From assembly GCA_021769625.1 (NCBI GenBank), contig JAETSN010000026.1, positions 1 to 53,614 of the forward strand: a DNA stretch of 53,614 bases. Reading direction: 5' to 3'. This document shows, in pieces, positions 3,143 to 22,942 of this stretch; position 1 is the stretch's first letter; each line of letters opens with the position of its first letter. The notes below the pieces were generated by a model. That model was not told the origin of the DNA. It saw only the letters and a list, made by a program, of their open reading frames with translations, and did no database searches. Made by a program: the position numbers and the translations under genes. The stretch is from [Clostridium] symbiosum. Lineage in GTDB: Bacteria > Bacillota > Clostridia > Lachnospirales > Lachnospiraceae.

Positions 3143-3170
3143 AAAAAAGGATGCAGCAGAAACTGCACCC
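3143..3170 (-). terminator. Hairpin with U-tract between small Zn-ribbon and YkgJ genes
   Basis: Minus-strand stem GGGTGCAG paired with CTGCATCC, then six T. The U-tract runs into the AAGGAGG ribosome site of the next gene, so terminator and translation start are adjacent. Confidence 0.65.
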
Positions 3171-3178
3171 TTGTCATT

Positions 3179-4371: not shown

Positions 4372-4400
4372 GAAAGGCGCAGCCGTGCGCCGCACCTTTC
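4372..4400 (-). terminator. Terminator between ligA and the YkgJ gene
   Basis: Minus-strand stem GAAAGGTGCG pairs with the CTGCGCCTTTC arm and is followed by TTTTAT. It lies 30 bases after the ligA stop. Confidence 0.7.
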
Positions 4401-7295: not shown

Positions 7296-7400
7296 TGTTT
7301 CATTCTCCTTTTCTTTTTTTTGTATTATTTTTGTATCCCCGGAAAGACGTCTCCTGGTTCCTCCTTTCCTGTACGGTTGTCTGCATTTTTCTGTCTGCAC

Positions 7401-7435
7401 AAAAAAAGAGAATGGACACGAAAATGTTCATTCTC
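7401..7435 (-). terminator. Second leader terminator upstream of the nonapeptide-repeat gene
   Basis: Minus-strand stem GAGAATG with CATTCTC, followed by seven T. It is the second of two tandem terminators between the promoter near 7573-7601 and the first gene at 7295. Confidence 0.7.
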
Positions 7436-7462
7436 CCACTTGCTGCAGGTATCCTGCAAAAT

Positions 7463-7507
7463 AAAAAAAGCCAGAAGGCTCTGCAGGGCAGAGTTTCCTT
7501 CTGACTA
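7463..7507 (-). terminator. First leader terminator upstream of the nonapeptide-repeat gene
   Basis: A long minus-strand stem (AGTCAGAAGG...CTTCTGGCT with an inner CTCTGC/GCAGAG arm) followed by seven T. It lies about 65 bases after the predicted transcription start, so it would stop most transcripts unless it is relieved. Confidence 0.8.
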
Positions 7508-7512
7508 TCGTA

Positions 7513-7571
7513 CAAACCTAAACTGCGTGTAGCATATCCGTTCCGGATAACACAAAAATGAAATACAAGAT
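7513..7571 (-). ncRNA. Conserved 5' leader RNA core, copy A
   Basis: The leader of the 7295 operon contains ATCTTGTATT, then TTTTTGTGTTATCC, a small hairpin (ATCC-ggaac-GGAT) and ACACGCAGTTTAGGTTTG. The same order and wording recur at 19797-19875 upstream of ssb, followed in both places by tandem terminators. This looks like a cis-acting regulatory RNA, such as an attenuator or antiterminator receiver. The class is not one I recognise. Confidence 0.6.
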
Positions 7572-7572
7572 A

Positions 7573-7601
7573 AGTGTAACACTATATATAGAAAAAGTCA
7601 A
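7573..7601 (-). promoter_or_regulatory. Promoter of the nonapeptide-repeat/ligA operon
   Basis: On the minus strand, TTGACT (7596-7601) and TACACT (7573-7578) are 17 bases apart. Two copies of AACACTATATATAG (7578-7591 and 7609-7622, 31 bases apart) lie in the spacer and just upstream of the -35, and look like operator sites. Confidence 0.7.
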
Positions 7602-7711
7602 ATGATAAAACACTATATATAGTAAAAACAATGGAGGAGAAAGAAAAGGTGTGACAAGCAGGGAAGAAACGCGTATGCTTGATACAGACCATTGAAAAGG
7701 AGGAAACAGGA

Positions 7712-8131
7712 ATGAACATGTGTTATGGTAATAAGGGGGAAACGGAAAAGTATGAGGCATTATTGCTGCTTTTTCAGGAGTCTGTAGAGGCATCTCCTGA
7801 TTACCGGATTGGGATCCTGCCGGGAGTTGGATACATAGCGGTGATTGGAAAAAGCCTGCCGGATGAGGAGGATGGCGAGCGGGCGGCAGTCCATTTGCAT
7901 ATTGACAGGGTAATGCGGACACCGCTTGAGATGGCGGAGGAATTACTGGGAAACTGGAGATGGCAGTGGTATTACAGCCATCCGGGATGTGTGGATGTGG
8001 AAGGGTATGATACGATAATGAGACTGGATCAGGATATGCCGGAAAAGTGCAGGGAGACATATTTTCCGGAACTGAACAATTACCGCAGAAAAGCGGGTGA
8101 GATCGTGGGTGTGGATTGGGAAAACCTGTAA
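7712..8131 (+). CDS. Unrecognised small protein
   Basis: A 139-residue acidic protein on the plus strand, against the direction of its neighbours. The ATG at 7712 follows GGAGG at good spacing. An in-frame ATG at 7679 lacks a ribosome site. The sequence is rich in Trp, Tyr and Glu (ELLGNWRWQWYYSHPG, VGVDWENL) and has no signal peptide or membrane segment. I recognise no family. No plus-strand promoter is obvious; the TATATA repeats of the divergent promoter could serve both directions. Confidence 0.55.
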   Translation: MNMCYGNKGETEKYEALLLLFQESVEASPDYRIGILPGVGYIAVIGKSLPDEEDGERAAVHLHIDRVMRTPLEMAEELLGNWRWQWYYSHPGCVDVEGYDTIMRLDQDMPEKCRETYFPELNNYRRKAGEIVGVDWENL

Positions 8132-8158
8132 AAAAAGAGCCGCTCAGATGGGCGGCTC
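8130..8158 (-). terminator. Terminator for the small gene at 8174-8419
   Basis: Minus-strand stem GAGCCGC/GCGGCTC followed by seven T, 15 bases past the stop of the minus-strand gene. The convergent plus-strand gene ends at the U-tract. Confidence 0.75.
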
Positions 8159-8173
8159 AAAGTATTTTGCGTT

Positions 8174-8419
8174 TCAGACGGAAATCCTTTCTTTCTGCTC
8201 TTCAAAATAACGGTCTGCAATATAACCGGCAGATTCAGCCCACAGGGCATTTTGGGTGTTTTGCAGGGCTTCGTATGTTTTAGATTCATAAAAAGAAACG
8301 GTTGCATCGGGAAAATTCATTCCGGTTGTTTCTTGTATGATATCTATAACATCACGGATTTGGATGCACAGGTTCATGGTTATGTCTTTCCCATTAAAAA
8401 AATATTTTCCGGATATCAT
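8174..8419 (-). CDS. Small hypothetical protein
   Basis: An 81-residue soluble protein (starts MISGKYFFNGKDITMN, ends EEQKERISV) with no recognised domain. The ATG at 8419 has GGAGG. It has its own near-consensus promoter at 8498-8526, a 12-codon upstream reading frame whose stop codon runs into the ribosome site, and its own terminator. It is thus a self-contained single-gene unit between divergent or convergent neighbours. Confidence 0.6.
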   Translation of the reverse strand: MISGKYFFNGKDITMNLCIQIRDVIDIIQETTGMNFPDATVSFYESKTYEALQNTQNALWAESAGYIADRYFEEQKERISV

Positions 8420-8431
8420 GATTTGACCTCC

Positions 8432-8470
8432 TTACGAGTTTCGAATCACCACATCAGATTGGATACTCAT
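8432..8470 (-). CDS. Short upstream reading frame, possible leader peptide
   Basis: ATG at 8470 preceded by AGAGGTAAG at usable spacing encodes 12 residues (MSIQSDVVIRNS). Its TAA merges with the AAGGAGG of the gene starting at 8419, so its translation could affect initiation there. Expression is not shown. Confidence 0.35.
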   Translation of the reverse strand: MSIQSDVVIRNS

Positions 8471-8497
8471 AATTGCTTACCTCTTATTTACAAATCT

Positions 8498-8526
8498 ATT
8501 ATAACAGAAATTATACTTTCGTCCAA
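8498..8526 (-). promoter_or_regulatory. Promoter for the 8174-8419 gene
   Basis: On the minus strand, TTGGAC (8521-8526) and a perfect TATAAT (8498-8503) are 17 bases apart. Confidence 0.75.
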
Positions 8527-8543
8527 TAGGGAAAATACGTGGA

Positions 8544-9104
8544 TCAGCCGACTAATGCAGAAGCATTGCGATAGGCTTCCTCATACGTATTCCATTTCAG
8601 CCTGTCACCATCACGCACCTGCATATCTCCCACGAAGGCATAGTAATGGCTGCCGTAATCATACTTTTGTATGCGGATATCGCTTTTCTTAAAATCCGGA
8701 AAGACGAGGGATTTGCGCCTGCAGAACTGTGTGTATTCCAGCCCATAGGTGCATCCGCCCGCAGGATTGATGTAGACCACTCCATGCTCCCGGATGGTGT
8801 TTAACTGATGCATGCCGGCTTCTATATTGAGCCAGCGGAATCCGTCAAAGATATTGCCATTCCCTTTTTGCGCCTGTATGACAGCAGCCTGAAGGAATTT
8901 AAAGTTCCGGTCATTCATTTTTTGGATCCGCTCTTCCAGAGAGAGGTTTTCCAGAATCTTATCCGGGGAACCTTTATGCAGATACATCTGGAAGGCATCC
9001 TCATAATGGCCATCCTTCATTTTCTCATGGTAGTCCGTCAGTTTTTCCACACTGTCAATTTTAAGCCACCAGCCGCCGTCGGCAAATACAAATAAATATT
9101 CCAT
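8544..9104 (-). CDS. Unrecognised soluble protein
   Basis: A 186-residue protein (starts MEYLFVFADGGWWLKIDS) with alternating charged and aromatic residues and no membrane segment or known motif. The start has AAAGGA at about 8 bases. It is the last gene in the minus-strand run from ssb to here, separated from the previous gene by a hairpin with a U-tract at 9128-9155. Similar unannotated genes are common on clostridial ICEs. No function can be given. Confidence 0.6.
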   Translation of the reverse strand: MEYLFVFADGGWWLKIDSVEKLTDYHEKMKDGHYEDAFQMYLHKGSPDKILENLSLEERIQKMNDRNFKFLQAAVIQAQKGNGNIFDGFRWLNIEAGMHQLNTIREHGVVYINPAGGCTYGLEYTQFCRRKSLVFPDFKKSDIRIQKYDYGSHYYAFVGDMQVRDGDRLKWNTYEEAYRNASALVG

Positions 9105-9127
9105 ATTCTCATCCTTTCGTTTGTTTT

Positions 9128-9155
9128 AAAAAGAGCCGTCCAAAGTGAACGGCCC
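9128..9155 (-). terminator. Intergenic hairpin with U-tract
   Basis: Minus-strand GGGCCGTTC...GGACGGCTC followed by TTTTT, just after the stop of the gene at 9164. Confidence 0.65.
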
Positions 9156-9163
9156 AGGTAATC

Positions 9164-9736
9164 CTATTGTTTCTTTCCGGAATGGACTTCATTGCCATCC
9201 GCATCGTAATCACCGGTTTGCAGAAGCTTTTTGCGGAAAGTATCCAGTTTTTTGCAGAACCGTTTTCCATCTTCTACGGTTGTCAGCATAGTGAGGGCAT
9301 CAATCATACCATCAATATGGCCGGCAATCCGGTAATAGCGTTGGGGGTTATCTTCAGGAGAGATCGCCTGCAGCGTTTCCTCTAAGCGTCCCTGTTTTTC
9401 CCTCAGCCATTCATTCCAGATGTCAAGCTCCAGATCAGTCATGGCTGAATTTCCTCCACTGGCATTGCTTTTCCCGTCTGTAAGAGCAGGATGAAAAGCG
9501 TCAGAAAGAGGAAAATCGACTTCTGTAATCGCCCACTCGCTCCAGTCGCCATGAATAACGGCAGTGGCGCTGAATGTATCCAGGGAAGTGTTTTCTTTTT
9601 CGTCCGTCGTTTGCTCGATACCATCCAGGGCCGTATGGAAGCTTTTCTCCATTTTGCGGTAGATATCTTCATAGGAAAAGGAGATAAGCGGATCGTTTAA
9701 GCCTGCAGAATAACTGGTTAAAATAAAGATCTTCAT
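9164..9736 (-). CDS. Unrecognised acidic protein
   Basis: A 190-residue protein (starts MKIFILTSYSAGLNDP) rich in Asp/Glu, with a predicted helical C-terminal half (LELDIWNEWLREKQGRLEETLQ). The start at 9736 has GGAGG. It lies 14 bases after the gene ending at 9751 and is probably co-transcribed with it. No motif is recognised. Confidence 0.6.
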   Translation of the reverse strand: MKIFILTSYSAGLNDPLISFSYEDIYRKMEKSFHTALDGIEQTTDEKENTSLDTFSATAVIHGDWSEWAITEVDFPLSDAFHPALTDGKSNASGGNSAMTDLELDIWNEWLREKQGRLEETLQAISPEDNPQRYYRIAGHIDGMIDALTMLTTVEDGKRFCKKLDTFRKKLLQTGDYDADGNEVHSGKKQ

Positions 9737-9750
9737 GCGTATTTCCTCCT

Positions 9751-10350
9751 TTAAGCTGCCGCATCATCTGGCTGATACGGATTTTCAAATTCATGGATAT
9801 AAATGTCCGACTCTTCCAGGAGGTCTTTGAGTGCTTCGAAAGATTCCGCTTCGTAGCCGAGAGCCTGGAAACATGCCAGGATATCCTCGGCCAGTGCAAA
9901 GGGATTGTCGTATTCCAGCTTTTCTGTAATGCGTTCTCCGGATGGGGTAACCAGTGCTTCATCCCGTATGCTGACCATGTACCGGTCAGGGAAATACTTC
10001 CCGGAAGTATCGGTATTGTAATAGATCCCTTCTCCGGGTTCAATACTGAGCATCACGAATTCCACACCATAAGTATCCGCTATGGCAGCATAGGCTTCCA
10101 GAAGCGGAGTCCAGGCCGCGTCTGTGCTTAACAGGATATGGCCTTCGTCCCGTTCCATATAGCTCACAGTGCCGCGTAAACCGATACCGGTGGTGCAGAT
10201 CCCTTTATATTCAAAAAGATTCCCGATCCACGCTTTATCTGCATCCGTGCAGATAATCACAGAGGCTTCCAGATCTTCCCAGAGGGATAAAAGCCCCTCC
10301 GGATTGGTGCTGGAAAAGAAGTAAACATCATCGCCACATACATTTGCCAT
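9751..10350 (-). CDS. Unrecognised acidic protein, possibly Api92-like fold
   Basis: A 199-residue protein with an N-terminus (MANVCGDDVYFFSSTNPEGL) that loosely recalls the ferredoxin-like Api92/DUF1281 proteins of phages and plasmids, but the match is weak. It is strongly acidic throughout and ends in YQPDDAAA. Its start overlaps the stop of the upstream gene by one base (TAATG) and has AGGAGG, so the two are translationally coupled. Confidence 0.6.
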   Translation of the reverse strand: MANVCGDDVYFFSSTNPEGLLSLWEDLEASVIICTDADKAWIGNLFEYKGICTTGIGLRGTVSYMERDEGHILLSTDAAWTPLLEAYAAIADTYGVEFVMLSIEPGEGIYYNTDTSGKYFPDRYMVSIRDEALVTPSGERITEKLEYDNPFALAEDILACFQALGYEAESFEALKDLLEESDIYIHEFENPYQPDDAAA

Positions 10351-11132
10351 TATTCGTCCTCCTCCTGTGTTTCTTCCGTTTCATAGCCTGGAATCTCCAT
10401 ATGGTACAGGCAGTCCTGAAGGTCTGGATCTTTTGCAATCGCATCATATACGCGGTTGATTTCTTCAAAAGAAGCATAGTCTTTGTCAAGCTCTGTAATC
10501 TCAACCAGGATGGAAGGATCCGTTGACTTCACACAACTGACGATGCCGTTGTCAATTACGACAGCGACTCTGGGATCCCTTTTTGGGGCATCCTGCATGG
10601 CTGCGGTGATGTCTCCGGGGGTTGCTGCCTCCGAGAGGCTGGCCGGATAAAATCCGGGCATAGATGCAGTCTGTGCAAGGATGGCATCAAGGGTCTCCTG
10701 GCTTGCGGCGAACCGGTCAATTTCAGCGATCAGCACATGGGCCTCCGGTGACTGGCATAAGACGCGGACCACTTCTTTTTCATCCATAAGCAGGATGATC
10801 TTTTCCGGAACAGGATGGCCGGCAGTCTTTTGATACATGCCTTTGGAAATGCCGGATTCTATTTCATCAATTACGGTATCCAGGGTGTCATTGTAAGCGA
10901 TATTGCAGTCCTCTTTTTTCTGGTACATTTCATATGCTGTATCCAGAAGAGCCGAGTCATCAGGCAGTGTTTCGTAATTGAGATTGCAAAGGCCGGTTTC
11001 CTCTGCACGCCGTTCCAGGCAGCGGTTTATGAAGTCCGCTTCCCAGTAAATACGCTGCTGTCTGTAATAGATCCGGTCAATTTCCTGCTGTGACAGGCAG
11101 ACGGTCATAGCCTGATTCATTTGTTCTTTCAT
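10350..11132 (-). CDS. Unrecognised acidic protein
   Basis: A 260-residue acidic protein with a glutamine-rich N-terminus (MKEQMNQAMTVCLSQQEIDR) and a Glu/Asp-rich tail (EETQEEDE). A central segment (HPVPEKIILLMDEKEVVRVL) could form a small alpha/beta unit. The start at 11132 has AAAGGAGG and overlaps the end of the upstream gene by 56 bases. No family is recognised. It belongs to a tightly packed set of at least five genes starting near 11.9 kb. Confidence 0.6.
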   Translation of the reverse strand: MKEQMNQAMTVCLSQQEIDRIYYRQQRIYWEADFINRCLERRAEETGLCNLNYETLPDDSALLDTAYEMYQKKEDCNIAYNDTLDTVIDEIESGISKGMYQKTAGHPVPEKIILLMDEKEVVRVLCQSPEAHVLIAEIDRFAASQETLDAILAQTASMPGFYPASLSEAATPGDITAAMQDAPKRDPRVAVVIDNGIVSCVKSTDPSILVEITELDKDYASFEEINRVYDAIAKDPDLQDCLYHMEIPGYETEETQEEDE

Positions 11133-11679
11133 GGGTATCCTCCTTTATCATGGTCTGTGAGACATTTGGTTTTGGCATGGGGTAGAGCAGGACCTTGCCT
11201 TTAAGGTCCAGTTCCTTTTCTATCCATGCGTCATTTTCGTAGACTTTTCCGGTAATCGAATTGTAGATCACAGGTGTTTTCTCCGGATTTACCGGGTCCG
11301 CCACCAGGCAGTTCTTCATTGCAGTATAAGGAGCAAGTGCATCCTCTATTTTCCTGCGCAGCCCCAGGGCCATTACGTGCAGTTTCTGTACATCATAGGT
11401 ACGGGACATGCAGAGGCTCATCTGCCGGATCAGGCCGGATTCCTCAATGGCCCGGTTGATCACATCCACCTGCTCGTCAATGGAGACATCCGGATTTACC
11501 GGGAGCTGGGTGACAACCACCGATCTGACAAATTCACTGGCGGTTTCATTGATCTGTGCGATCAGGGCCTCATAAGGTTCTTTATAACAGGTCTTTAAGG
11601 TTTCCAGCGGTACGTTTTCCCGGTTCTTTTTTAAGGTGGAGAGCAGCTTTTCCAGGCTGCTCCCCAGTTCATAGGTCAT
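11077..11679 (-). CDS. Unrecognised helical protein
   Basis: A 200-residue, mostly helical protein (MTYELGSSLEKLLSTLKKN). The ATG at 11679 overlaps the upstream stop as TGATG and has GAGGTG 11 bases away; an in-frame ATG at 11688 is too close to that site. The C-terminus overlaps the next gene. No motif is recognised. Confidence 0.6.
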   Translation of the reverse strand: MTYELGSSLEKLLSTLKKNRENVPLETLKTCYKEPYEALIAQINETASEFVRSVVVTQLPVNPDVSIDEQVDVINRAIEESGLIRQMSLCMSRTYDVQKLHVMALGLRRKIEDALAPYTAMKNCLVADPVNPEKTPVIYNSITGKVYENDAWIEKELDLKGKVLLYPMPKPNVSQTMIKEDTHERTNESGYDRLPVTAGN

Positions 11680-11927
11680 CAAGCACACATCACCTCGGTT
11701 GGCTTCGCAATGGTTTCATAGCGAAGATCATAGACAGTATGTAAGGTTTCAAAGACAATGCCGTTTTCCGAGACTTCCAGGATGTATTTGACATTGGAAG
11801 TCATCATGGCATGTCTGGAAGTGTAGATAAAAGCACGTTCCCCTACACGGAGTGGAAGCGCGAGGCTGCCTGTTATGGAAAATATTTTTTTCTGCTTCTG
11901 GGGTATTTCTCCAAATTTCTGAGTCAT
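11679..11927 (-). CDS. Small unrecognised protein
   Basis: An 82-residue protein with a basic N-terminus (MTQKFGEIPQKQKKIF) and beta-rich remainder. The start has GGAG. It is coupled to the following gene by TGATG overlap and lies 46 bases after the sigma-factor-like gene. Confidence 0.55.
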   Translation of the reverse strand: MTQKFGEIPQKQKKIFSITGSLALPLRVGERAFIYTSRHAMMTSNVKYILEVSENGIVFETLHTVYDLRYETIAKPTEVMCA

Positions 11928-11973
11928 AGTGATTACTCTCCTTTTATCTGTAAATCATTCATTGACAAAAACC

Positions 11974-12504
11974 TTAGAGCAGGGCCATGTTGCGGATCCT
12001 GCGCCGCATCCTGCTGAAGCGGCTGCCCACGCCGTAAATGGTAATGCTGCATTTTTCTGCAATCTCACGGTAGGTGTAGCCGTCTGCTTTTAAATGTACG
12101 ACTTCCTTTTCCTTTGGTGTCATGCAGGAGAGCAGTTTTACCAGAAGCTCCTGGTTCCCCAGCGCTTCGTCCATGCAGGTTCTCCGTCCTGGGAGAAACA
12201 TATCAAGGGACATGGTTTCGTCCTCAAACAGGGTAACGGTAGCCGTGCGCTTGTCACGGGTGCGGTAGAAGTATTCCTTTGCCAGACAGTCTTTCATGTT
12301 GCGCCATGCGATCGTGCTGAAGGCATATTCTGCCAGTTCCGGCTTTTCCAGATATTCCTGTACAGCCAGGAGGTAGCCGAAGATGACAACATCATAAAAT
12401 TCGTCTGCATCAAGCAGGTTCCTTCTTAAAAAATTTTCTACAATGTCATGGTGCAGGGCAGCAAACTGCTTCTGCTGGTCATTTAATTCATGGATTTTTC
12501 TCAT
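11974..12504 (-). CDS. Sigma-70-like factor (first of two on the element)
   Basis: A 176-residue protein with a region 2-like helical first half (AVQEYLEKPELAEYAFSTIAWRNMKDCLAKEY) and a clear region 4-like helix-turn-helix at the C-terminus (MTPKEKEVVHLKADGYTYREIAEKCSIT). It should direct RNA polymerase to a specific promoter set or act as a related transcription regulator. I chose the ATG at 12504, with AAGGAAGG about 7 bases away; an ATG at 12510 is too close. It lies 18 bases after the SpoVT-like gene. A second sigma-like gene lies at 25910-26479. Confidence 0.75.
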   Translation of the reverse strand: MRKIHELNDQQKQFAALHHDIVENFLRRNLLDADEFYDVVIFGYLLAVQEYLEKPELAEYAFSTIAWRNMKDCLAKEYFYRTRDKRTATVTLFEDETMSLDMFLPGRRTCMDEALGNQELLVKLLSCMTPKEKEVVHLKADGYTYREIAEKCSITIYGVGSRFSRMRRRIRNMALL

Positions 12505-12522
12505 GTTCATCCTTCCTTCCGT

Positions 12523-13029
12523 TCATTGGTTTATTTCGTGTTCAAGCATGCTGGCGATCAGCCCTGCACATCCAAGCTCCATCTCCGAGAGCGGTTTTTT
12601 GGAAAGCACAGCCAGTGCAGCCGGGCGTTTGCCGTGTACAGGAAACAGTGCAGCCACCGGCTCCCGGTAAGGGGGCATAAAGACAGGCGGCTCTGGTTCC
12701 AGTGTGGCTTTCATGCCGGCAGTTACGTAGGCAGACAGTGTATCCGGGACAGGCGTGCCATCCGGGAGATATATGCCTGCGGCAGCAATCACCTGATGTT
12801 TTGAGTACAGGAAAACGGCATGCCGGATACTGCCATGCAGGATTGCCAGGAAGCTTTTGGCTTTCCGGTAATCTGCGTCTGTGTCATTGCACCGGTGGAG
12901 GTGGATCTCCTGGTCGATTAGTTCTACCTGGAGAGGTTCCCCATCGGCTATTTTTAAAAATCTGCGGATCCTGGCAGGGATCACAATGCGGCCCTGGGTA
13001 TCCATCGTGCAGATATCTGCGTATTTCAT
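12523..13029 (-). CDS. SpoVT-like regulator: AbrB domain plus GAF-like domain
   Basis: A 168-residue protein with an N-terminal swapped-hairpin AbrB/MazE-type DNA-binding domain (TQGRIVIPARIRRFLKI, about residues 10-27). The C-terminal part (PVAALFPVHGKRPAALAVLSKKPLSEME) resembles the GAF-like half of SpoVT. SpoVT is a host sporulation regulator; this copy has a diverged C-terminal half and sits in an ICE operon ahead of a sigma-like gene, so it likely regulates element genes. The ATG at 13029 has AAAGGGG. A strong hairpin precedes it. Confidence 0.75.
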   Translation of the reverse strand: MKYADICTMDTQGRIVIPARIRRFLKIADGEPLQVELIDQEIHLHRCNDTDADYRKAKSFLAILHGSIRHAVFLYSKHQVIAAAGIYLPDGTPVPDTLSAYVTAGMKATLEPEPPVFMPPYREPVAALFPVHGKRPAALAVLSKKPLSEMELGCAGLIASMLEHEINQ

Positions 13030-13051
13030 AAGCGTCCCCTTTCATTCACAA

Positions 13052-13077
13052 GAAAAGAAGCAGCCATTGGCCGCTTC
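13052..13077 (-). terminator. Intergenic hairpin with U-tract before the SpoVT-like gene
   Basis: Minus-strand GAAGCGGC-caat-GGCTGCTTC followed by TTTTCTT, between the genes at 13093 and 13029. Confidence 0.7.
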
Positions 13078-13092
13078 CTTCTTAAACTGGTA

Positions 13093-13821
13093 TTATGCGG
13101 CATAGGGGATTCCCTGTGCCGGATTCTGGTATTGTCCGTTCTGCATCGGATATTGCGTCTGGCTCTGTGCCTGCCACTGCGCCTGCCAGTTTGCGTAAGC
13201 CTGTTTCCCGTTCTGGATGAGGGAAGGGGCCACGCATGCCTCCCAGTTGGTGATGTAGGAATCCGTGCGTTTGAGAAACGTATACAGATCCATATCCGTA
13301 AGCTGGATAAATGCACTTTTTTCCGCAAGGAAGCTTCCGGACTGCATGTAAGATCCGCCCTTCTGGTTCTGTACTTTGATGCCTCTGCCGTTTACGATCT
13401 GGATGCGCCAGGGGCTTTTCATCATACGCCCATTCTGGTCAGTGGTATGGCGGGAAATGGAAAACTGCTGTGCCGTGGAATACCCCTGCCCGTCCGGCTG
13501 GCCGTAGATCTTGCTCTGCGACCATTCGAATTCCTGAAAACCGGCAGTGATCCGTGTTAAGAAGAACTGGATCTGCTCCGGGGAGAGGTTAAACTGGACG
13601 ATCACATTTTTGTCTCCTGTGCCGTTGGAATAATCCTGGATCGTGATCCCGATCAGGGAATGGGCTTTATGCCCGTTTTCCATGTATTCCCCTTTGGCAT
13701 GGAGCTGTGCGTAACTGGTCAGTGCGGTAAACCGCAGCCGGTCATAGGCCGCGATCAGTTTCCGGTCCGTCTGTACCTTGATGATCTGGTCAGAATAGCG
13801 TACCTGTTCATTTTGATTCAT
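13093..13821 (-). CDS. Unrecognised protein with Gln-rich tail
   Basis: A 242-residue protein with a mixed alpha/beta body and a low-complexity C-terminal tail rich in Gln, Asn, Tyr and Ala (from about residue 205). The tail recalls that of the element's SSB protein. The start at 13821 has GAAGGG. It follows the HExxH/VWA gene by 16 bases. The tail may mediate weak multivalent contacts, but that is inference. No family is recognised. Confidence 0.6.
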   Translation of the reverse strand: MNQNEQVRYSDQIIKVQTDRKLIAAYDRLRFTALTSYAQLHAKGEYMENGHKAHSLIGITIQDYSNGTGDKNVIVQFNLSPEQIQFFLTRITAGFQEFEWSQSKIYGQPDGQGYSTAQQFSISRHTTDQNGRMMKSPWRIQIVNGRGIKVQNQKGGSYMQSGSFLAEKSAFIQLTDMDLYTFLKRTDSYITNWEACVAPSLIQNGKQAYANWQAQWQAQSQTQYPMQNGQYQNPAQGIPYAA

Positions 13822-13837
13822 TGTCTGTCCCTTCTTT

Positions 13838-15946
13838 CTATATAAGATGCTGTTTTACCAGGAGCGCCATGTTTTTAGGCAGGTCTTCCAGGTTGGTGAT
13901 ATCCAGGAAGCCGTCCTTGTAAATGCGCCGGATGTTTTCTTTGTCGGAACCGATGGCAGCGGCGAAAATGGTGATCCCCTGCCGGTTATATTCCTTCTTG
14001 ATCCCCCGCAGGTCCGCCTCTGCTTCTGTGCCGTAATACCCGTAATCGGCGGGCTGCCCATCAGAAATGATGATGAGCAGCTTTTTCTTTTCCGGACGTT
14101 TTACCAGGCGTTCCGCTGCAAACCGCAGGGCGGCGCCGTCACGGTTTCCGTCCCGGGCGCTCATGTCCATCAGGCGGTAGCGGTCCGAGGCATCTACAGA
14201 ATCAAAGCTGGCATAGGAATAAAGCTCTACGCCGTATCCGGTAGAATGCCCATAGATCTCAACCGGGATATCCAGGCTTTTGCAGAAATCATACACGACA
14301 ATGGCAGCCTTTCTTGCATGGGTGATGCGGTCAGCACAGGACATGGAGCCGCTTTCATCCACCAGGATCGCAACAGCCAGCCTCGGGCTTTCATCCGGAA
14401 GGCGGTTCCTGATAAAGTAAGTTCCGTCCTCATGGTGGAGTGCATGCATGTCAAGCCGTTTCCCAAACTGCAGGTTCTTCATTTTGCCGCCTTCGCTTTC
14501 TTCTTTCAGAAGTGGGCGGATGGTTGCCTGCAGCCGCCGGGAAGCTTTGATGAGCGGCGGCGCGATCGTCTGGTACTGCTGGATCATATGGTCGGTCACA
14601 CACGGCATCCGGTTGACTGTCACATGGATCCCTGCATGGGCGTTTCCGTAATGGATGTCATCAGCCGCCTTTTGCAGCTCCTCGGCCAGTTCCTGCTGGT
14701 ACTGGGCCTCTGCTTTTTCCGTGGCGACATCATTCAGGATACGGAAGATATCGTCTGCAGCCTTTTCATAGCTGGAACCCAGGTACTGGTGGTTGTAGGT
14801 GATGCCGGGATTATTGCCGTCCAGGATGGAAGTTGTTTTTGCAAGAGCCATCCGGTTCCCCTCTTCCTGTACAACCTCCTGTGCGTGCCGGAAATGATTC
14901 TGCCGGATATCCGCTGCCTGTGGCGGCAGGGGATTTTCCTGCTGTTCTTTTTTCCCTTTTTCTGCCTGCTTCGGGGCTGCCCCGTTTTTACCGGACGGAA
15001 GCGGTGCGCCTCCGTGTATCTGGCTGCCCAGAATGGATTCCAGAAGGTTTTCTGCATCTTTTTCCCCCTGTTTGTTGATCTCTTCCTCCATGTCCTTGAC
15101 CAGCGGCCTGATATACTCCCACAGGAAAACAAGGAGCTGGTTGGTGGTCCGGAAACGGTCCCTCACATCATCGGAATACAGCGCATCGTCTATATAGGGG
15201 ATGCACTCTTCCAGAATATCCAGGTAAGGCCCGGAGTAACCGTAGAGGTTATTGACCGACCCGGTGCGGCAGTACTGAAGGATCAGGTTTGCGGCAATGG
15301 AAAAATCCTGGTATTTCTCATCAATCTGCTGCTGGATGGAAGGCATCTGCTCCGCCATCCGCAGGCTGTTCAATTCAATTCCAAGTTTATAGGTGCCGGG
15401 ATAGTCTTCCGATATACGGGCCTCGATGTAAATATCTTCGAGGATGTTGCTGATATGGGATGCACAACGCTCCAGTGTCATGCAGCCGGCCCTGTCGCCG
15501 GAAGCGACGATATCCATGATCTCCTCCAGGTTCTGGTCATGCTGCGGTGCAGGGGCAGAAGGCGGCTCCGGGTAAAAGGAGCCTTTGGCCATGCTGTTTA
15601 AGTACAGCGCAAGCGCTGTAAAGTCTGTATACAGCAGGTGGCCGGTCTCATGCCCGTTCAGCCCGCTGATGCTCTCAGAGCGCAGGATGCGGGATGGGAA
15701 ACTCTGGGTGATCCGGTTGGCTGCGTTGATATGGATCTTGTAATTGTCCGTATAGGCAACATCCGTATCTTCAGAAGGATCCCATTCCATAAGTACCTGC
15801 AGGCCCTGGCGGTAGCGGCCGGTAGCCGCTTTTGCCATAGAGGTCTGGTATTTCTGGTAGGCAGAGGAGAGGAACAGCTCATCATCCGTAAGGGAGAGTG
15901 ACTGGTCTTTGATCATCTGCTGTAATTTTTTCTGGTTGCTGTTCAA
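13838..15946 (-). CDS. HExxH plus VWA-domain protein (CobT/NorD-like)
   Basis: A 702-residue protein. The N-terminal part has HETGH (residues 99-103) and downstream acidic helices (ILEDIYIEAR), resembling a gluzincin-type zinc peptidase. A Lys/Gln/Pro linker covers about 315-345. The C-terminal VWA domain has a complete MIDAS start, D530-S532-S534 (VDESGSMS). Such VWA proteins work with MoxR-type AAA ATPases (as in CobS-CobT and NorQ-NorD) to remodel a target protein or insert metal. The ATPase partner is two genes upstream. The start is TTG at 15946 with AAAGGAAG at 8 bases. Confidence 0.8.
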   Translation of the reverse strand: MNSNQKKLQQMIKDQSLSLTDDELFLSSAYQKYQTSMAKAATGRYRQGLQVLMEWDPSEDTDVAYTDNYKIHINAANRITQSFPSRILRSESISGLNGHETGHLLYTDFTALALYLNSMAKGSFYPEPPSAPAPQHDQNLEEIMDIVASGDRAGCMTLERCASHISNILEDIYIEARISEDYPGTYKLGIELNSLRMAEQMPSIQQQIDEKYQDFSIAANLILQYCRTGSVNNLYGYSGPYLDILEECIPYIDDALYSDDVRDRFRTTNQLLVFLWEYIRPLVKDMEEEINKQGEKDAENLLESILGSQIHGGAPLPSGKNGAAPKQAEKGKKEQQENPLPPQAADIRQNHFRHAQEVVQEEGNRMALAKTTSILDGNNPGITYNHQYLGSSYEKAADDIFRILNDVATEKAEAQYQQELAEELQKAADDIHYGNAHAGIHVTVNRMPCVTDHMIQQYQTIAPPLIKASRRLQATIRPLLKEESEGGKMKNLQFGKRLDMHALHHEDGTYFIRNRLPDESPRLAVAILVDESGSMSCADRITHARKAAIVVYDFCKSLDIPVEIYGHSTGYGVELYSYASFDSVDASDRYRLMDMSARDGNRDGAALRFAAERLVKRPEKKKLLIIISDGQPADYGYYGTEAEADLRGIKKEYNRQGITIFAAAIGSDKENIRRIYKDGFLDITNLEDLPKNMALLVKQHLI

Positions 15947-15965
15947 ATCTTATTCTTCCTTTCTT

Positions 15966-16208
15966 TTAAAATAATTTTTCTGTCAGAAGCTCTTCCATAG
16001 TGCAGCCGAAATAAGCTGCCATACGGTAAGTAATGTATGTGGGCGGAAGGGTTCTGCCGGATTCGTAATTGATAATTGATTTCCGTGGGATGTGAAGGAT
16101 CCGAGCCAGGGTTTTCTGGGAGAGCTGCCATCTTCTGGATTTCCGCAGGTAACAGAGGTTGGATGCAAAGATCCCACGCATGGCATCTTCTGTCACAGGT
16201 CTGTTTGT
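15966..16208 (-). CDS. XRE-type helix-turn-helix regulator
   Basis: An 80-residue protein with a Cro/C1-type HTH (WQLSQKTLARILHIPRKSIINYESG). I chose the ATG at 16208, which follows the stop of the ATPase gene by 16 bases with AAGGCGGTG as a weak ribosome site. The frame is open further upstream, inside the ATPase gene, but without a ribosome site. Lying between the ATPase and VWA genes, it may regulate that operon. Confidence 0.75.
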   Translation of the reverse strand, partial: TNRPVTEDAMRGIFASNLCYLRKSRRWQLSQKTLARILHIPRKSIINYESGRTLPPTYITYRMAAYFGCTMEELLTEKLF

Positions 16209-16224
16209 CATGGCTGTCACCGCC

Positions 16225-18039
16225 TTATGCCGCAAGGATGGAATCCAGGCAGCCCGTCTCCACTTCCATACGGCTTTCTGCATCCGCGGACACAGAAGAC
16301 AGCACAGTGTAATGTGCCGCTTCCCGGATATCCCCGCATACCATGTAGGACTGTACCCAGGAGACCAGTTCCCGGACGCCACAGCATCCGTCTGTGATCA
16401 GGTTTTCCCTGCAGTATTCCGACACCGCTTTTACGATCTTTGCCATAGTCCGCACGGCCTTTTTGTCGGAACAGCCGGTGATGCCGAGTACGCGCTGTAC
16501 CAGGGTTTCTTCGTCCGGTTCCTCCAGGTCGATCACAAGGTTCATACGGGAGATCACGGACTGGTTCATCTGTCTGCAGCCTGCATAATCATTATTGGTC
16601 GTTACGACGATGGTAGTGTCCGGATGGCGGTTTATCACTTCGCCGTTTGGCAAAAAGACGCTGTTGCACCGGTCCAGGAGGGAGTTAAGCCCTACCAGGA
16701 CGCCGGGGTTTGCAATAACCGTCGGCTCCTGAAGCTCGATGAGATAACCGTAGCGGATCGCTTCTACAAGAGGTGTATCCACATATTTGAATTTCTGGTG
16801 GGAGGACTGGTTTTTATAATGCTCATGCATCTCATCAAAGATGGTGTCGATAAGCTTCTGGTATACCGCGTCCTCTGTGACTGATTCATCGTAGGTTCCT
16901 GTCATCTTCTGGTAAGCTGTCGCCGGATCCATCATGATATCCTGGAATGTGGGGTATTCACTCTGGAGTGCGGATAATTTCCCGTCCACATCTGGCAGGA
17001 TCTGGCCTAACAGGTCAAAAATTTCCGTATTGGCGGAGCAGGTGATGCACCGGTAGGGTAGGTGCAGCCCGGCAGCAATGGCCTTGGCTCCTTCCGTCTT
17101 TCCGGTTCCTGCGGGGCCGCGCAGAAGGAAATTCCGCATGGGTGAAACCGTATCTGTAGTCAGTTTTGCATGCTCACAGATCCGCTTGATCTCCGGTGGT
17201 ATGATGTACCAGGACTCAAGTTTTGGCACAGTCAGTTCTTCCTGCGGGGTAAGCGTCCGGGATTCGGACAGGATGTATTTGTCTACAAAATCTGCCTGGG
17301 CGATAGCGGCGGCTACGGCTTTTACTGCAGCACCGGGCCGGATCACCTGGAAGGTGCCCAGGATCGTCGTGGTGGGTGCATAAGTGCCTTTCTGGACGGC
17401 AAAAGGTGTAACCTTCTGTATGGAGCCGTTATTAGGAGTATCATTTGGGATTCCGCCGGTTGGCAGTTCCTTTGCATACCGGACGCGGCGGTAGATGTTA
17501 TCGCACAGGACAGCGGCTGTTTTTACTGCCTCTTCCATGTCGGTGTAACCGTCGTCCCGGAGTTTTTTCAATGTCTGGTACTGTTCATTAAACTCGTCAT
17601 CTGCCATGACCGTAGGCAGGAGGGCAAAGATCAGTGCAGCACCGCTGTTTTCATCTTCCTTCAGCATATATTTTTCCGGTTCGCTTTCGGCATCTATAGG
17701 GCTTGGATAACTTCCTGCAATGAATTTGCCGTTGACCCGGTTGTAGATGACAACATGCAGGTTCCCGGTCCTGCTGGGATATTCCGCAATGGTAAAATTG
17801 TTGCCCTGGCTTCCGACAGCGCCCAGTTCCTCCGGGGCTTTTGTGCCATCCGGGGATTCCAGTTCCATATAGGACAGGATTGCCCGGAGCGTGGCGGCAT
17901 GCAGGGTAGAGCGTTTACGCGGCTGTGTGCAGTATTTTGAATATACATCTGTCCGTACACAGTCATCGGTGTAATCCTCAAAGGGTTTGGGAAGGGTGCG
18001 TTTAAAGCTCCAGTTTGGTATCATGTTTCCGATCGCCAT
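16225..18039 (-). CDS. MoxR-like AAA+ ATPase
   Basis: A 604-residue protein with Walker A GPAGTGKT (308-315) followed by CSANTEIFDLLGQILPD, as in MoxR/CobS/NorQ ATPases. There is a sensor-like VVTTNND stretch and an arginine-rich patch downstream. The 300 residues before the ATPase core are unusual for MoxR (normally about 300 in total) and have no recognised domain. The start has AAAGGAGG. Together with the HExxH/VWA protein it probably forms an ATP-driven chaperone or remodelling pair. Its target is unknown. Confidence 0.85.
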   Translation of the reverse strand: MAIGNMIPNWSFKRTLPKPFEDYTDDCVRTDVYSKYCTQPRKRSTLHAATLRAILSYMELESPDGTKAPEELGAVGSQGNNFTIAEYPSRTGNLHVVIYNRVNGKFIAGSYPSPIDAESEPEKYMLKEDENSGAALIFALLPTVMADDEFNEQYQTLKKLRDDGYTDMEEAVKTAAVLCDNIYRRVRYAKELPTGGIPNDTPNNGSIQKVTPFAVQKGTYAPTTTILGTFQVIRPGAAVKAVAAAIAQADFVDKYILSESRTLTPQEELTVPKLESWYIIPPEIKRICEHAKLTTDTVSPMRNFLLRGPAGTGKTEGAKAIAAGLHLPYRCITCSANTEIFDLLGQILPDVDGKLSALQSEYPTFQDIMMDPATAYQKMTGTYDESVTEDAVYQKLIDTIFDEMHEHYKNQSSHQKFKYVDTPLVEAIRYGYLIELQEPTVIANPGVLVGLNSLLDRCNSVFLPNGEVINRHPDTTIVVTTNNDYAGCRQMNQSVISRMNLVIDLEEPDEETLVQRVLGITGCSDKKAVRTMAKIVKAVSEYCRENLITDGCCGVRELVSWVQSYMVCGDIREAAHYTVLSSVSADAESRMEVETGCLDSILAA

Positions 18040-18053
18040 AATTGTTTCCTCCT

Positions 18054-18839
18054 TTATGACATCCAGGATAATTCCAGGGTGTCGCTGGTTTCTTTTGCAT
18101 TTAATTCATCATGGATGAAGATGTCCGTAAGGGCATTCCAGTATTTTTTTGGCGGGAAGTGCTCAAAGGCTGCTTTTACCTCCGGGGTATCCCCGTTTAA
18201 GATAAAGATCTCACCGGATTCATTGATGAAAAGCTTTTGGTGTCCCCTGGCCTGCAGGTCCCCGATCACGTTCTGTAAAAGCGGTTTCCCGATCAGCGTA
18301 TACCAGGATTTGGGGTCCACCTGCATGGGCGGTTCCAAAGGAGTATCCTTTTCATGGGGAAACAGTGCTTCCACAGTCATCATGGTAAGGTTCAGGTTCC
18401 CGTAAGCATCCAGGGATACCTCAGCAAAGTTGTAGCTTCCGGTATGGAAGGTACGGATCCGCAGGGTTTTGCCGGACAGGAGCCTGTCTGCACTGGGGCG
18501 CCTGGTAAAGTCCCAGGTGGCTTCCGGATAGGCAGACTTCAGTTTCCCGGTGATCTGAAAGCTGATCTGTCTCCAGAGCAGGGTTTCCAGATCAGAAATT
18601 TCTTCCGGGCTGTCAGCGTTCTGGGCTCTCTTCTTTTGCCGGGAACGCCCAGGGCGCACCAGCCGGGGAAGGAGAGGAACCAGAAGCAGGGCAAAGCTTG
18701 CAGCAATCCCGGTTACCGCAATCCATGTGATGATGGGGCGGTCTGCGTATTGGGGCAGAAGGATCAGTACTGCAAGTAAAACAGCGGCCATAACAGCCAG
18801 AAACATACGGCTTTTACTTTTCTTCTTTTGCTTTCTCAT
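18054..18839 (-). CDS. Membrane-anchored protein of unknown function
   Basis: A 261-residue protein with a basic start (MRKQKKKSKSR), two transmembrane segments (about residues 11-28 and 37-59) and a cytoplasmic domain after a basic Arg/Lys stretch. The ATG at 18839 has AAAGGATG at 7 bases; ATGs at 18848 and 18863 are less well placed. It lies between ssb and the MoxR-like gene in the same operon. No family is recognised. Confidence 0.65.
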   Translation of the reverse strand: MRKQKKKSKSRMFLAVMAAVLLAVLILLPQYADRPIITWIAVTGIAASFALLLVPLLPRLVRPGRSRQKKRAQNADSPEEISDLETLLWRQISFQITGKLKSAYPEATWDFTRRPSADRLLSGKTLRIRTFHTGSYNFAEVSLDAYGNLNLTMMTVEALFPHEKDTPLEPPMQVDPKSWYTLIGKPLLQNVIGDLQARGHQKLFINESGEIFILNGDTPEVKAAFEHFPPKKYWNALTDIFIHDELNAKETSDTLELSWMS

Positions 18840-18869
18840 AAGAGACATCCTTTCTTCAATCATTCTGAT

Positions 18870-18913
18870 AAAAAAGAGGAACTGCAGTGGCCTGCCGGGC
18901 CATGCAATTCCTC
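18870..18913 (-). terminator. Terminator after ssb
   Basis: Minus-strand long stem GAGGAATTGCATGGCC paired with GGCCACTGCAGTTCCTC, followed by six T. It lies 22 bases after the ssb stop, between ssb and the membrane-protein gene. Confidence 0.8.
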
Positions 18914-18935
18914 ATCCTGTGGGGTGATTCTTTAA

Positions 18936-19652
18936 TTAAACGGTAAACGGGAGCTGTCCTGCCATTCCTTCCGGGACGCTGGAAAAGCCTCCGCCAGCAG
19001 GGGCGCCTGGCATGGTGCCGTTATACGTCATCTGGCCAGACTGCTGGAAATTATTCTGCTGGTACATTCCATTTGCCATAGCCGGATTGGGTGCGGGGGC
19101 ACCGTTAAAAGTGCCGGGCTGCATACCGCGGTTTCCCTGTGGTGCCGGAGCATTTGTCATGCCGGCATTGGAAGTTCCGGGAGTATTCATGTATCCGCCG
19201 CCCTGCATCACAGGGGGCTGGCCGTTCCCGGCTCCGGGTGCTGCAGCTCCGTTATTGCCTGCCATCTGTCCGCCGGCAGGAGTTCCATTCGGGGCTGTAT
19301 TGGCTCCGTTCTCAGGCCTGTTGGCAATGCAGAATTCCCAGTCTTTTACAGACACTTCAATGCTTACTCCAGCCTGGCCTGCCCGCTGTCCTTTGTTGTA
19401 AAGAAATGGATGGATATCCACGCTTCCGGTAATGGAAAGGCAGGTTCCTGTCTTTACGCCGGCTTTTATCAGGCGCTCTGCAAGAAACTTGCTGAAATAG
19501 CACTGATAAAAAACGCTTTCATACGGATTATTTTTGTCCTGGCTGCGCTGCGTGGTCGCAATGTCGAGTGAGATATACTCCGCTCCTGAATTCTTTCCCT
19601 GCTGCATGACGGGATCCTTTGTCGGTCTCCCCATAAAGTGAATCATTGCCAT
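18936..19652 (-). CDS. ssb: Single-stranded DNA-binding protein
   Basis: A 238-residue protein with an N-terminal OB fold (MAMIHFMGRPTKDP, then a beta-rich region to about 130). A long Gly/Pro/Asn/Met/Gln-rich tail follows. It ends GMAGQLPFTV, not the usual acidic DDDIPF tip that recruits host partners. ssb genes are typical of conjugative elements, where they coat incoming single strands. The ATG at 19652 has AAAGGAG. It is the first gene after the attenuated leader at 19711-19905. The diverged tip suggests altered partner binding. Confidence 0.85.
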   Translation of the reverse strand: MAMIHFMGRPTKDPVMQQGKNSGAEYISLDIATTQRSQDKNNPYESVFYQCYFSKFLAERLIKAGVKTGTCLSITGSVDIHPFLYNKGQRAGQAGVSIEVSVKDWEFCIANRPENGANTAPNGTPAGGQMAGNNGAAAPGAGNGQPPVMQGGGYMNTPGTSNAGMTNAPAPQGNRGMQPGTFNGAPAPNPAMANGMYQQNNFQQSGQMTYNGTMPGAPAGGGFSSVPEGMAGQLPFTV

Positions 19653-19710
19653 GTTAAATCTCCTTTCTGCCTCTTTGGGCGTTAAAATAATAAAAATAGA
19701 TAAAAGAATA

Positions 19711-19733
19711 GGAAACCTGTAGTCCAGATTCCC
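19711..19733 (-). terminator. Second leader hairpin upstream of ssb
   Basis: Minus-strand GGGAATCTG-gacta-CAGGTTTCC, nine pairs including two G-T wobbles, followed by a T-rich run. It is weaker than the first leader terminator. Confidence 0.5.
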
Positions 19734-19740
19734 CATAAAT

Positions 19741-19790
19741 AAAAAAAGAGCCATTAAGAGGCCGCATAATACGGCTGTCCTAATGACTCT
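19741..19790 (-). terminator. First leader terminator upstream of ssb
   Basis: Minus-strand stem AGAGTCATTAGGACAGCC paired with GGCCTCTTAATGGCTCT, followed by seven T, about 80 bases after the predicted transcription start. Confidence 0.8.
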
Positions 19791-19796
19791 GATTTC

Positions 19797-19875
19797 CAAA
19801 CTTAAACTTGCGTGTGTCCTGGATGAATGGTCCAGACTCCCGTGTCGGGATAACACAAAAACTTCAATACAAGAT
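19797..19875 (-). ncRNA. Conserved 5' leader RNA core, copy B
   Basis: It contains ATCTTGTATT, TTTTTGTGTTATCC, the hairpin TCCCG-aca-CGGGA, an extra hairpin (CTGGA...TCCAG) and ACACGCAAGTTTAAGTTTG. It matches the leader at 7513-7571 in order and wording while the hairpin arms differ in a compensated way, so a shared structure rather than mere sequence copying is likely. Confidence 0.6.
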
Positions 19876-19876
19876 T

Positions 19877-19905
19877 ATAATAGCACAAGATATGGTGTGT
19901 GTCAA
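19877..19905 (-). promoter_or_regulatory. Promoter of the ssb operon
   Basis: On the minus strand, perfect TTGACA (19900-19905) and TATTAT (19877-19882) are 17 bases apart; an overlapping TATAAT starts three bases further on. Confidence 0.75.
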
Positions 19906-19979
19906 ATGAAAATGAACAATATATTGATGTTTGGGCGGTGAAGATATGACAAGTTAGTATATCCATTGCAAGTGAGGAA

Positions 19980-22144: not shown

Positions 22145-22942
22145 TCACTCTCGCAATTTCAAATTTCCATTTTTCAGAATGGTCATTGTGCCGTTGTATA
22201 TCCGGTCAAATATTTCGTAACCGTCCATTTTCATTAACTGCATTTCTTTTGTGTTTTTATGTATCTTGAAGGCAGTCTGGTGGCTGGCCTGGTGGAGCTG
22301 CATCCAGGAGTCGAAGTATTGTTTTGCTTCGTTGCGTTCCAGATGTAACCGCTCTTTCAAAACATAGAAGGATGAGAGAGCACTGATACAGGGAATGCCG
22401 CCTGTACCGGATAGCCCAGCCCTTGCACGCCTGTCATCAGAACAAAACACATAAAGCTGAATATTTTCTATATTTTGCAGTACCTGCTGTAAAACATAGT
22501 TTTTTATTTCCCCCAGGTTATTGTCACATCCAATATCAGCATCGCACTGGGAAAGTTCAGCGGTAAACTCTGTTTCAGGAAGGGATGTCTTTTTTTCAAG
22601 TTCTGCATAGTATTTTCCGTAAAAGCTTCCGTCAAACAGGCTGCAGGCATTATTCAGATAAAAGAGGAACATCGAAATGCTGTTTTTGCCATACAACGGA
22701 TGTAAGAGAGCCAGAAGGTCGGCATCAGAAAACTTTTGTATGCTTCCTTCCGTTATTTTCTGCTGAAGCCAGATGATTGCGGATGCATTGTGACGGCCTA
22801 ATTCTATACAGATCTGTTCATGGCAGACAAACAGATAGCCAGGAAGCTCCATAACTCTGTCTATGAGCCGGTTTTCATCATCTTTTCTCGTTATATGAAG
22901 TTTTGAGATGAAATCAGTATCAAATAATGCACATTTGTTCAT
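22145..22942 (-). CDS. PIN-like domain protein, putative toxin/nuclease of a three-gene module
   Basis: A 265-residue protein with acidic residues at PIN-like spacing: D8 (LFDTD), E47 (ICIELGR), D140/E145 (GCDNNLGEIK) and D169-D170 (FCSDDRRAR). The NLGE and SDDxxAR blocks are typical of PIN nucleases, which cut RNA. It overlaps the upstream metallopeptidase gene as ATGA. With XRE and ImmA/IrrE genes ahead, it looks like the effector of a stress- or phage-triggered module. Activity is inferred. Confidence 0.7.
   Translation of the reverse strand: MNKCALFDTDFISKLHITRKDDENRLIDRVMELPGYLFVCHEQICIELGRHNASAIIWLQQKITEGSIQKFSDADLLALLHPLYGKNSISMFLFYLNNACSLFDGSFYGKYYAELEKKTSLPETEFTAELSQCDADIGCDNNLGEIKNYVLQQVLQNIENIQLYVFCSDDRRARAGLSGTGGIPCISALSSFYVLKERLHLERNEAKQYFDSWMQLHQASHQTAFKIHKNTKEMQLMKMDGYEIFDRIYNGTMTILKNGNLKLRE

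Follow-up and report, generated by a model that had tools for sequence, protein, structure and literature searches.

A structured leader RNA of clostridial conjugative elements as a candidate processive antiterminator of establishment operons

Two operons on a 53,614-nucleotide contig of [Clostridium] symbiosum (JAETSN010000026.1; the whole stretch is referred to as the window) are each headed by a copy of the same conserved, structured RNA with compensatory base changes. Leader 1 stands ahead of an operon containing the DNA ligase gene ligA and leader 2 ahead of an ssb-like gene, each on the minus strand. The contig also encodes VirB4-like and VirD4-like proteins and other type IV secretion genes. 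We propose that the leader is a cis-acting processive antitermination RNA of the put/EAR/canT kind, which would act behind a repressor-controlled promoter on an establishment regulon. Judged from sequence, this reading is given a probability of about 0.55. The sources consulted describe few cases of processive antitermination that depends on an RNA, namely put and, among Gram-positive bacteria, EAR, conAn and canT (PMC9378689, PMC11658703, PMC8955417). The leaders form a compact family of around a hundred distinct variants (107), often with several copies per genome and with a clear set of regulated genes, which would make them a tractable model in gut Clostridia.

A conserved RNA with compensated stems

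An earlier sequence-only reading of the window had described a core common to both leaders, comprising 17-spaced promoters, shared sequence blocks, a small paired hairpin and tandem terminators. The promoters and the blocks were found as described: TTTTTGTGTTATCC matches exactly at both leaders and at no other site in the window, and ATCTTGTATT and ACACGCA(A)GTTTA(A/G)GTTTG are likewise present in both. The conserved block also takes in the promoter and a dyad upstream of it. The small hairpin is present inside a shared closing stem, but its number differs, with one in leader 1 and two in leader 2. Tandem hairpins with T tracts follow both cores; however, the second one before ssb has an interrupted tract and is not conserved. 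It is seen in the related locus L046 and, by eye, in L083, but not in L047-L050, which places it outside the conserved unit.

The closing stem P1, UGUG(C/U)/(G/A)CACA, bounds a junction in a constant frame. Within this junction the ligA leaders of the kind in the window carry one hairpin and the corresponding ssb leaders two, while a further subtype carries two to three, mostly three by eye. Covariation was assessed in two alignments. In A2, 38 distinct rows fitted to the proposed structure, pairing is found in 90.6% of cells and changes on both sides of a pair number 45, compared with 17.4 in shuffles. Moving the pairing partner by one column reduces pairing to 34.5-36.0%, and by two columns to 67.7-73.7%, the latter value being attributed to the UGUG/CACA repeat of P1. 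A4 consists of 52 rows of 57 distinct matches (length 74-84 only) aligned with MAFFT, with the structure named after seeing the alignment. Here pairing reaches 94.2% and double-sided changes 43 versus 16.4, no measure being reached in any of 500 shuffles; the shifted controls give 14.5-23.7% and 58.5-58.6% for one and two columns, respectively. Hairpin P2 was omitted from the A4 structure because MAFFT misaligned it. As the search pattern fixes P1 in A4, making it invariant by construction, covariation of P1 rests on A2, where the fifth pair is CG in 19 rows, UG in 5, UA in 3, other in 7 and a gap in 4. Unguided folding of a nine-row alignment with RNAalifold kept just four pairs, all of the first hairpin.

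Sequence conservation extends to the flanks of the core, (U)UGUAAUUGAUUU and CGC-UGUUAAGUUUGUA, in which inspection by eye reveals no consistent pairing. Pairing of the 5' flank (CUUGUAAUU) with the 3' flank (GUUAAGUUUG), also considered by eye, was dropped because it fails in some subtypes. The leader is thus a conserved structured RNA with compensatory changes in both A2 and A4, in keeping with the functional RNA with compensated stems that the sequence-only reading had suspected.

Distribution of the family and the genes behind it

The RNA, which the sequence-only reading did not recognise as a known class, matches no Rfam family. For the window and ten divergent loci, Rfam 15 returned no match at or above the gathering threshold, further scans giving sub-threshold matches only. 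None of the titles and beginnings of abstracts listed in literature searches names the RNA, although the supplementary tables of PMC8040213, which hold thousands of candidate RNAs from the human microbiome, could contain it. The covariance search suggested alongside the sequence-only reading was run with R1, a model built from nine leaders that include both from the window. At E<=1e-3, R1 finds the leader in 25 of 397 genomes of the host's family, at 42 places with the host's two counted. The leader recurs before operons of related conjugative elements. The 24 further genomes rule out chance, and 13 of the 25 carry two to four leaders. A second model, R2, built from 35 leaders, found matches in 3/391 genomes of the class and 1/299 of the phylum, the host counted in both, under strict filters that lose weak matches. 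Run at E<=10 over the entire host genome (4.08 Mb, 145 contigs), R2 found no copy besides the two in the window.

Other searches extend this picture. With leader 2 as query, blastn recovered a leader of 81% identity in MT835792.1, a record that carries no annotation. Relatives of ssb occur in six of 150 family genomes, the host counted, and the leader is present in all five of the others. A sequence pattern for the three-hairpin subtype matched 114 stretches in genome contigs, and the 80 of these that were listed entered the later analyses. Among those 80, titles name Lachnospiraceae, Oscillospiraceae, Clostridiaceae, other Clostridia or bacteria without a taxon name, with genera including Hungatella, Enterocloster, Anaerotruncus, Flavonifractor, Eisenbergiella, Acetatifactor and Fournierella. 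Viral contigs of IMG/VR gave 36 pattern matches that were taken as chance, by eye none having a leader-like promoter and 3' flank. Peptide patterns found no ssb relatives in viral contigs or genome contigs, and tblastn of ssb against plasmids found none. Three of 40 fetched matches, L086 and L094 (both G262) and L091 (G028), have an unrecognisable core or promoter and look like decayed copies; having no recognisable core, they were left out of A3 and the upstream counts.

The resulting collection holds 107 distinct natural leaders, and the genes behind them recur. Downstream are ssb-type genes in 32 cases (ssb, a protein that by eye looks membrane-bound, and an AAA or DUF932 gene), a YqaJ nuclease and/or RecD2 helicase in 34, ligA-type genes in 8 and an unclassified 400-aa protein in 20. 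In the remainder, 5 have no called gene in the locus and 8 have other genes; some of the small downstream gene clusters are probably not genes. Backbone genes are common to the window and the elements from genomes G191, G104, G703, G361, G340 and OY725878.

The whole record of pMM35_02 from Vescimonas fastidiosa (NZ_AP023417.1) contains two R2 matches at E<=1. The first stands before ssb, behind genes for VirD4, an S1 protein, a zinc-finger protein and a sigma factor. The second heads a minus-strand run that includes lambda-exonuclease, a RecD-like helicase, an AcrIIA9-family Cas9 inhibitor and ligA. The downstream genes are of kinds that would serve establishment in a new cell, and establishment regulons with anti-restriction genes have been described (PMC8708921). 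The leader family would offer a way to recognise establishment operons, including anti-defence operons, in unannotated elements, and served here as the search handle for the yqaJ-recD-AcrIIA9-ligA stretch of pMM35_02. In that stretch the annotated Cas9 inhibitor (L262 5917-6765) lies on the same strand as the leader.

Two of these records carry labels that may mislead. NZ_AP023417.1, described as a plasmid, has prfB, adenylosuccinate synthase, purB and ychF next to the element, and so could represent part of a chromosome into which the element has integrated. MT835792.1 (L043, 20165 of 27920 bases examined) is labelled Bacteriophage sp. and has the same tblastn pattern and leader as the G191 element; the ssb, ligA and backbone genes that it carries cast doubt on the phage label.

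Promoter, operators and terminators

TTGA-N-TA promoters are present in 102 of 103 distinct upstream stretches. Between the -10 box and the core lie 16-18 nt in every one of the 105 leaders with a recognised promoter, which the other two of the 107 lack. Given this fixed distance, the first base of the RNA should be no more than a few bases away from the conserved UGUAA. A 12-bp dyad (consensus ACWATATATWGT) lies on each side of the -35 box. With up to two mismatches the upstream dyad is found in 90/101 leaders (shuffle mean 4.06 mismatches) and the second, in the promoter spacer, in 78/101 (shuffle mean 4.78), scored with a consensus derived from these same leaders. Where both are present their centres are 30-31 bp apart in 83 of 86 leaders and 41 bp apart in three. 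Eight of the ten dyad matches in the window, at the same threshold, fall at the two leaders. The twin dyads look like a pair of operators on one helix face, to which a putative regulator would bind.

A small XRE regulator within the ssb operon (15966-16382) is a candidate for this role. A profile search of the element regions detected it in G191/MT835792, G104 and G703, whose leaders all have one or two hairpins, and gave no match in G361, G340 or OY725878. ImmR/ImmA (23772-24149 and 22939-23787) was considered and rejected as the dyad regulator, as the intergenic stretch upstream holds just one two-mismatch match, at 24710-24722. This pair of a helix-turn-helix protein and an ImmA/IrrE-like metallopeptidase (22939-24149), arranged as in ICEBs1, otherwise has no dyad near it.

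Downstream of the core, a predicted intrinsic terminator with its T tract 45-61 nt past the core is present in 96 of 98 leaders (-13 to -33 kcal/mol) and lacking in two; nine of the 107, win1 included, have no recognised core end and were excluded. In block-shuffled tails a terminator appears anywhere in 140 nt in 147/294. RNAs of the put, EAR and canT kind are conserved and structured and head an operon, with a promoter on one side and a terminator on the other, and this is the arrangement found here.

Further predicted intergenic terminators lie within the operons, in the window at 18875 (after ssb), 13056, 9132, 4375, 3580 (an imperfect hairpin), 3148 and 941. The last T tract precedes the next start codon by a median of 27.5 nt in leader-controlled gaps and 106 nt elsewhere (24 and 44 gaps). 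At a cut-off of 45 nt, picked after seeing the data, the last terminator is this close in 19/24 versus 13/44 (rank test p=0.0014, duplicated element removed), or 20/25 versus 13/41 before the duplicated element was removed. With a terminator so close to its start codon, the next gene is unlikely to have a separate promoter, as there is scarcely space for one. Transcription of genes placed in this way could scarcely occur unless polymerase reads through, and this is the strongest, if indirect, argument for antitermination. A strong predicted terminator directly after ssb, separating it from the next gene, recurs in six of seven distinct elements (window, G104, G703, G361, G340 and OY725878) and is absent from the seventh, G191/MT835792.

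Several points weigh against antitermination. Internal terminators are not enriched in leader-controlled gaps (25/70, compared with 48/143 other co-directional gaps, p=0.76), and the distance test, with its retrospective cut-off, followed this null result. The gap tests take gene starts from a simple caller and assume operon extents, and in G703 the diverged second leader was not recognised as such, leaving one of two counted. In addition, the 3' strand of the core pairs slightly better with its own terminator arm (-8.17 kcal/mol) than with swapped (-7.98, ~2 sd) or shuffled arms (-7.04). The post-ssb terminators of OY725878 (L044, 10662), G361 and G340 are long-stemmed, and very long stems might halt even an antiterminated polymerase.

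Under the antitermination reading, a regulator bound to the two dyads flanking the -35 box would hold the promoter off in the donor, and once the element reaches a new cell that lacks this regulator, the promoter would fire. The transcript would begin at once with the core, that is P1, one to three hairpins and the conserved unpaired flanks; here the structure is supported by covariation and the start site is inferred from the fixed spacing of core and -10 box. Either unaided or together with a protein, the nascent core may then bind the elongating polymerase and make it termination-resistant. Such a polymerase would pass the terminator after the core and the further predicted terminators between the genes of the operon. 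The ssb, ligA, exonuclease and helicase genes would be made solely from the leader promoter and stray upstream transcription would stop. The purpose is probably that only polymerase started at the leader promoter reads into the DNA-handling operon.

Competing explanations and known systems

The main rival is protein-dependent antitermination, in which the element would encode an antiterminator that binds the core in the manner of a nut site. One of two sigma-like proteins, an S1-domain protein beside VirD4 or an unnamed conserved protein could be that factor. A DUF3268 protein, a sigma-like protein and two unnamed proteins do recur upstream of the ssb leader, within ~1 kb in G703, G361, G340 and pMM35_02 and farther away in the window, G191 and OY725878, and the S1 RNA-binding protein lies beside VirD4 in both the window and pMM35_02. 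However, nothing connects these proteins with the RNA. A search of seven of the 27 leader-bearing genomes, several of them drafts, found one NusG in six and two in G361, which makes recruitment of a NusG paralogue unlikely. Protein dependence is judged unlikely, though it is the explanation that comes closest to the preferred one.

Less probable still is a conditional attenuator, riboswitch-like or protein-controlled, in which alternative folds of the core permit or block the terminator. Attenuators are usually laid out in this way, with a terminator immediately behind a structured leader, and the slight excess pairing of the core 3' strand would suit one. The whole core paired with the terminator arm gives -11.78 kcal/mol for native combinations, compared with -12.39 for swapped and -12.47 for shuffled ones, and so shows no excess complementarity. 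Minimum-energy folds of full leaders keep the terminator in 88/88 and P1 in 73/88, both fitting one fold. Core and terminator therefore do not compete, and mutually exclusive pairing, which an attenuator of the riboswitch type needs, is not seen for the whole core. The suggestion in the sequence-only reading that the RNA senses something thus found no support, and the annotated regulated genes are DNA enzymes without a common metabolite. By eye, the 3' strand of P1 could pair with the terminator foot (UGUGCC) in some yqaJ leaders, making an antiterminator possible in that subtype only.

It is more improbable again that the actual product is the terminated leader, acting in trans as a small RNA, and that operon expression is leakage. 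Promoter, core and strong terminator would yield a short structured RNA, estimated at ~110-170 nt. Yet 94 of the 107 distinct leaders precede one of four recurrent gene groups, and the position of the internal terminators is left unexplained. That the repeat acts as single-stranded DNA during transfer, as a promoter or priming site like those on plasmid F, is very improbable: the downstream genes look like establishment genes, for which single-stranded promoters are known (PMC8708921), but in folds the -35 and -10 boxes are both paired (>0.8) in 0/105 leaders, mean pairing is 0.52 and 0.43 for the two boxes against a region mean of 0.57, and the promoter fits the ordinary double-strand consensus.

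If the leader is an antitermination RNA, its closest counterparts are those named at the outset. The put RNA of phage HK022 is likewise a cis-acting structured RNA of ~70 nt with terminators downstream; putL lies just downstream of its promoter, and each phage has two copies after two early promoters (PMC9378689). It differs in having two stem-loops and in belonging to a lambdoid phage of E. coli, whereas the leader has one to three hairpins within a closing stem, is found in Clostridia and would bind polymerase by analogy. Like the leader, canT of Tn916 is an RNA of a Gram-positive conjugative element, and it lets polymerase pass the element's terminators, but its activity has been assigned to a 452-nt fragment, with some shorter ones active (PMC11658703). 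The leader is ~60-105 nt long and occurs in two or more copies in 13/25 genomes. The conAn system of pLS20 also heads a long conjugative-plasmid operon with internal intrinsic terminators and differs in combining the ConAn1 protein with the conAn2 RNA (PMC8955417). R2 found no credible match in bases 1-50000 of the 65774 of pLS20 (best 16.8 bits, E 0.93, 10% GC).

Two further systems share parts of the layout. In the pLS20 family, the repeated upstream sequences EGeRS1 and EGeRS2 define an establishment regulon. EGeRS2 has a strong repressor-controlled promoter, as is proposed for the leader, and no leader RNA is mentioned for it in the text consulted; EGeRS1 is predicted to fold and blocks upstream read-through but spans ~420-750 bp without a detectable promoter (PMC8708921). 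In the leader, both kinds of feature are joined within ~200 bp. The dfn hairpin recognised by LoaP also precedes a leader terminator and intra-operon terminators, but it is a small UNCG hairpin bound by a NusG paralogue (PMC12691694), and six of seven leader-bearing genomes examined have one NusG only. Overall, the leader has the logic of put, EAR, conAn and canT without sequence kinship where this was tested (Rfam 15 and 50,000 of the 65,774 bases of pLS20), so it would work like them without being a member. That it represents a new class in Clostridia is given slightly less than even odds: a cis-acting antitermination RNA with a constant frame and one to three exchangeable hairpins, starting at +1, through which several establishment operons (ssb, ligase, recombinase, anti-CRISPR) of a large family of conjugative elements would be switched on in one step with a twin-operator repressor.

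Table 1. Positions of leader and operon features in the window.
Feature	Position	Strand	Remarks
Leader 1 upstream dyad O1, ACTATATATAGTG	7611..7623	-	zero mismatches
Leader 1 promoter TTGACT-17-TACACT	7573..7601	-	dyad O2 in spacer, 7580-7592
Leader 1 RNA core, one hairpin inside P1	7511..7574	-	R1 59.0 bits
Leader 1 first intrinsic terminator (predicted)	7460..7506	-	-22.1 kcal/mol, tract at 7469
Leader 1 second intrinsic terminator (predicted)	7400..7436	-	-11.7 kcal/mol, tract at 7407
First gene of operon 1, 278 aa	6459..7295	-	no match in Pfam or PHROGs
ligA, NAD-dependent DNA ligase	4431..6434	-	PF01653 4e-47
Predicted terminator within operon 1	4374..4398	-	next start codon 24 nt on
Predicted terminator within operon 1	3147..3172	-	next start codon 18 nt on
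Leader 2 upstream dyad O1, TCAATATATTGTT	19915..19927	-	two mismatches
Leader 2 promoter TTGACA-17-TATTAT	19877..19905	-	dyad O2 in spacer, 19884-19896
Leader 2 RNA core, two hairpins inside P1	19795..19878	-	R1 99.8 bits
Leader 2 intrinsic terminator (predicted)	19740..19790	-	-24.4 kcal/mol, tract at 19747
Leader 2 second hairpin, interrupted T tract	19700..19736	-	-14.7 kcal/mol, tract at 19708
ssb-like gene, 238 aa	18936..19652	-	PF00436 3.2e-6 (ORF from upstream start); phrog_44 1.9e-5
Strong predicted terminator directly after ssb, inside operon 2	18874..18913	-	tract 18875
Predicted terminator within operon 2	13055..13079	-	next start codon 27 nt on
Predicted terminator within operon 2	9132..9155	-	next start codon 28 nt on

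Some further genes of the window are of note. Two sigma-70-like proteins are encoded at 25910-26479 and 11974-12510, with their best Pfam matches in region 2 and region 4, respectively. The pair recurs in several related elements, though the leader promoters look like ordinary housekeeping promoters, and pMM35_02 has a sigma-70 and an ECF-type sigma factor beside ssb. The S1-domain RNA-binding protein that adjoins the VirD4-like coupling protein (window 47753-48685; pMM35_02 L259 6391-7635) is an unusual neighbour for a secretion gene. Finally, Ku and an ATP-dependent ligase, an end-joining pair, are encoded on the plus strand at 44936-46662.

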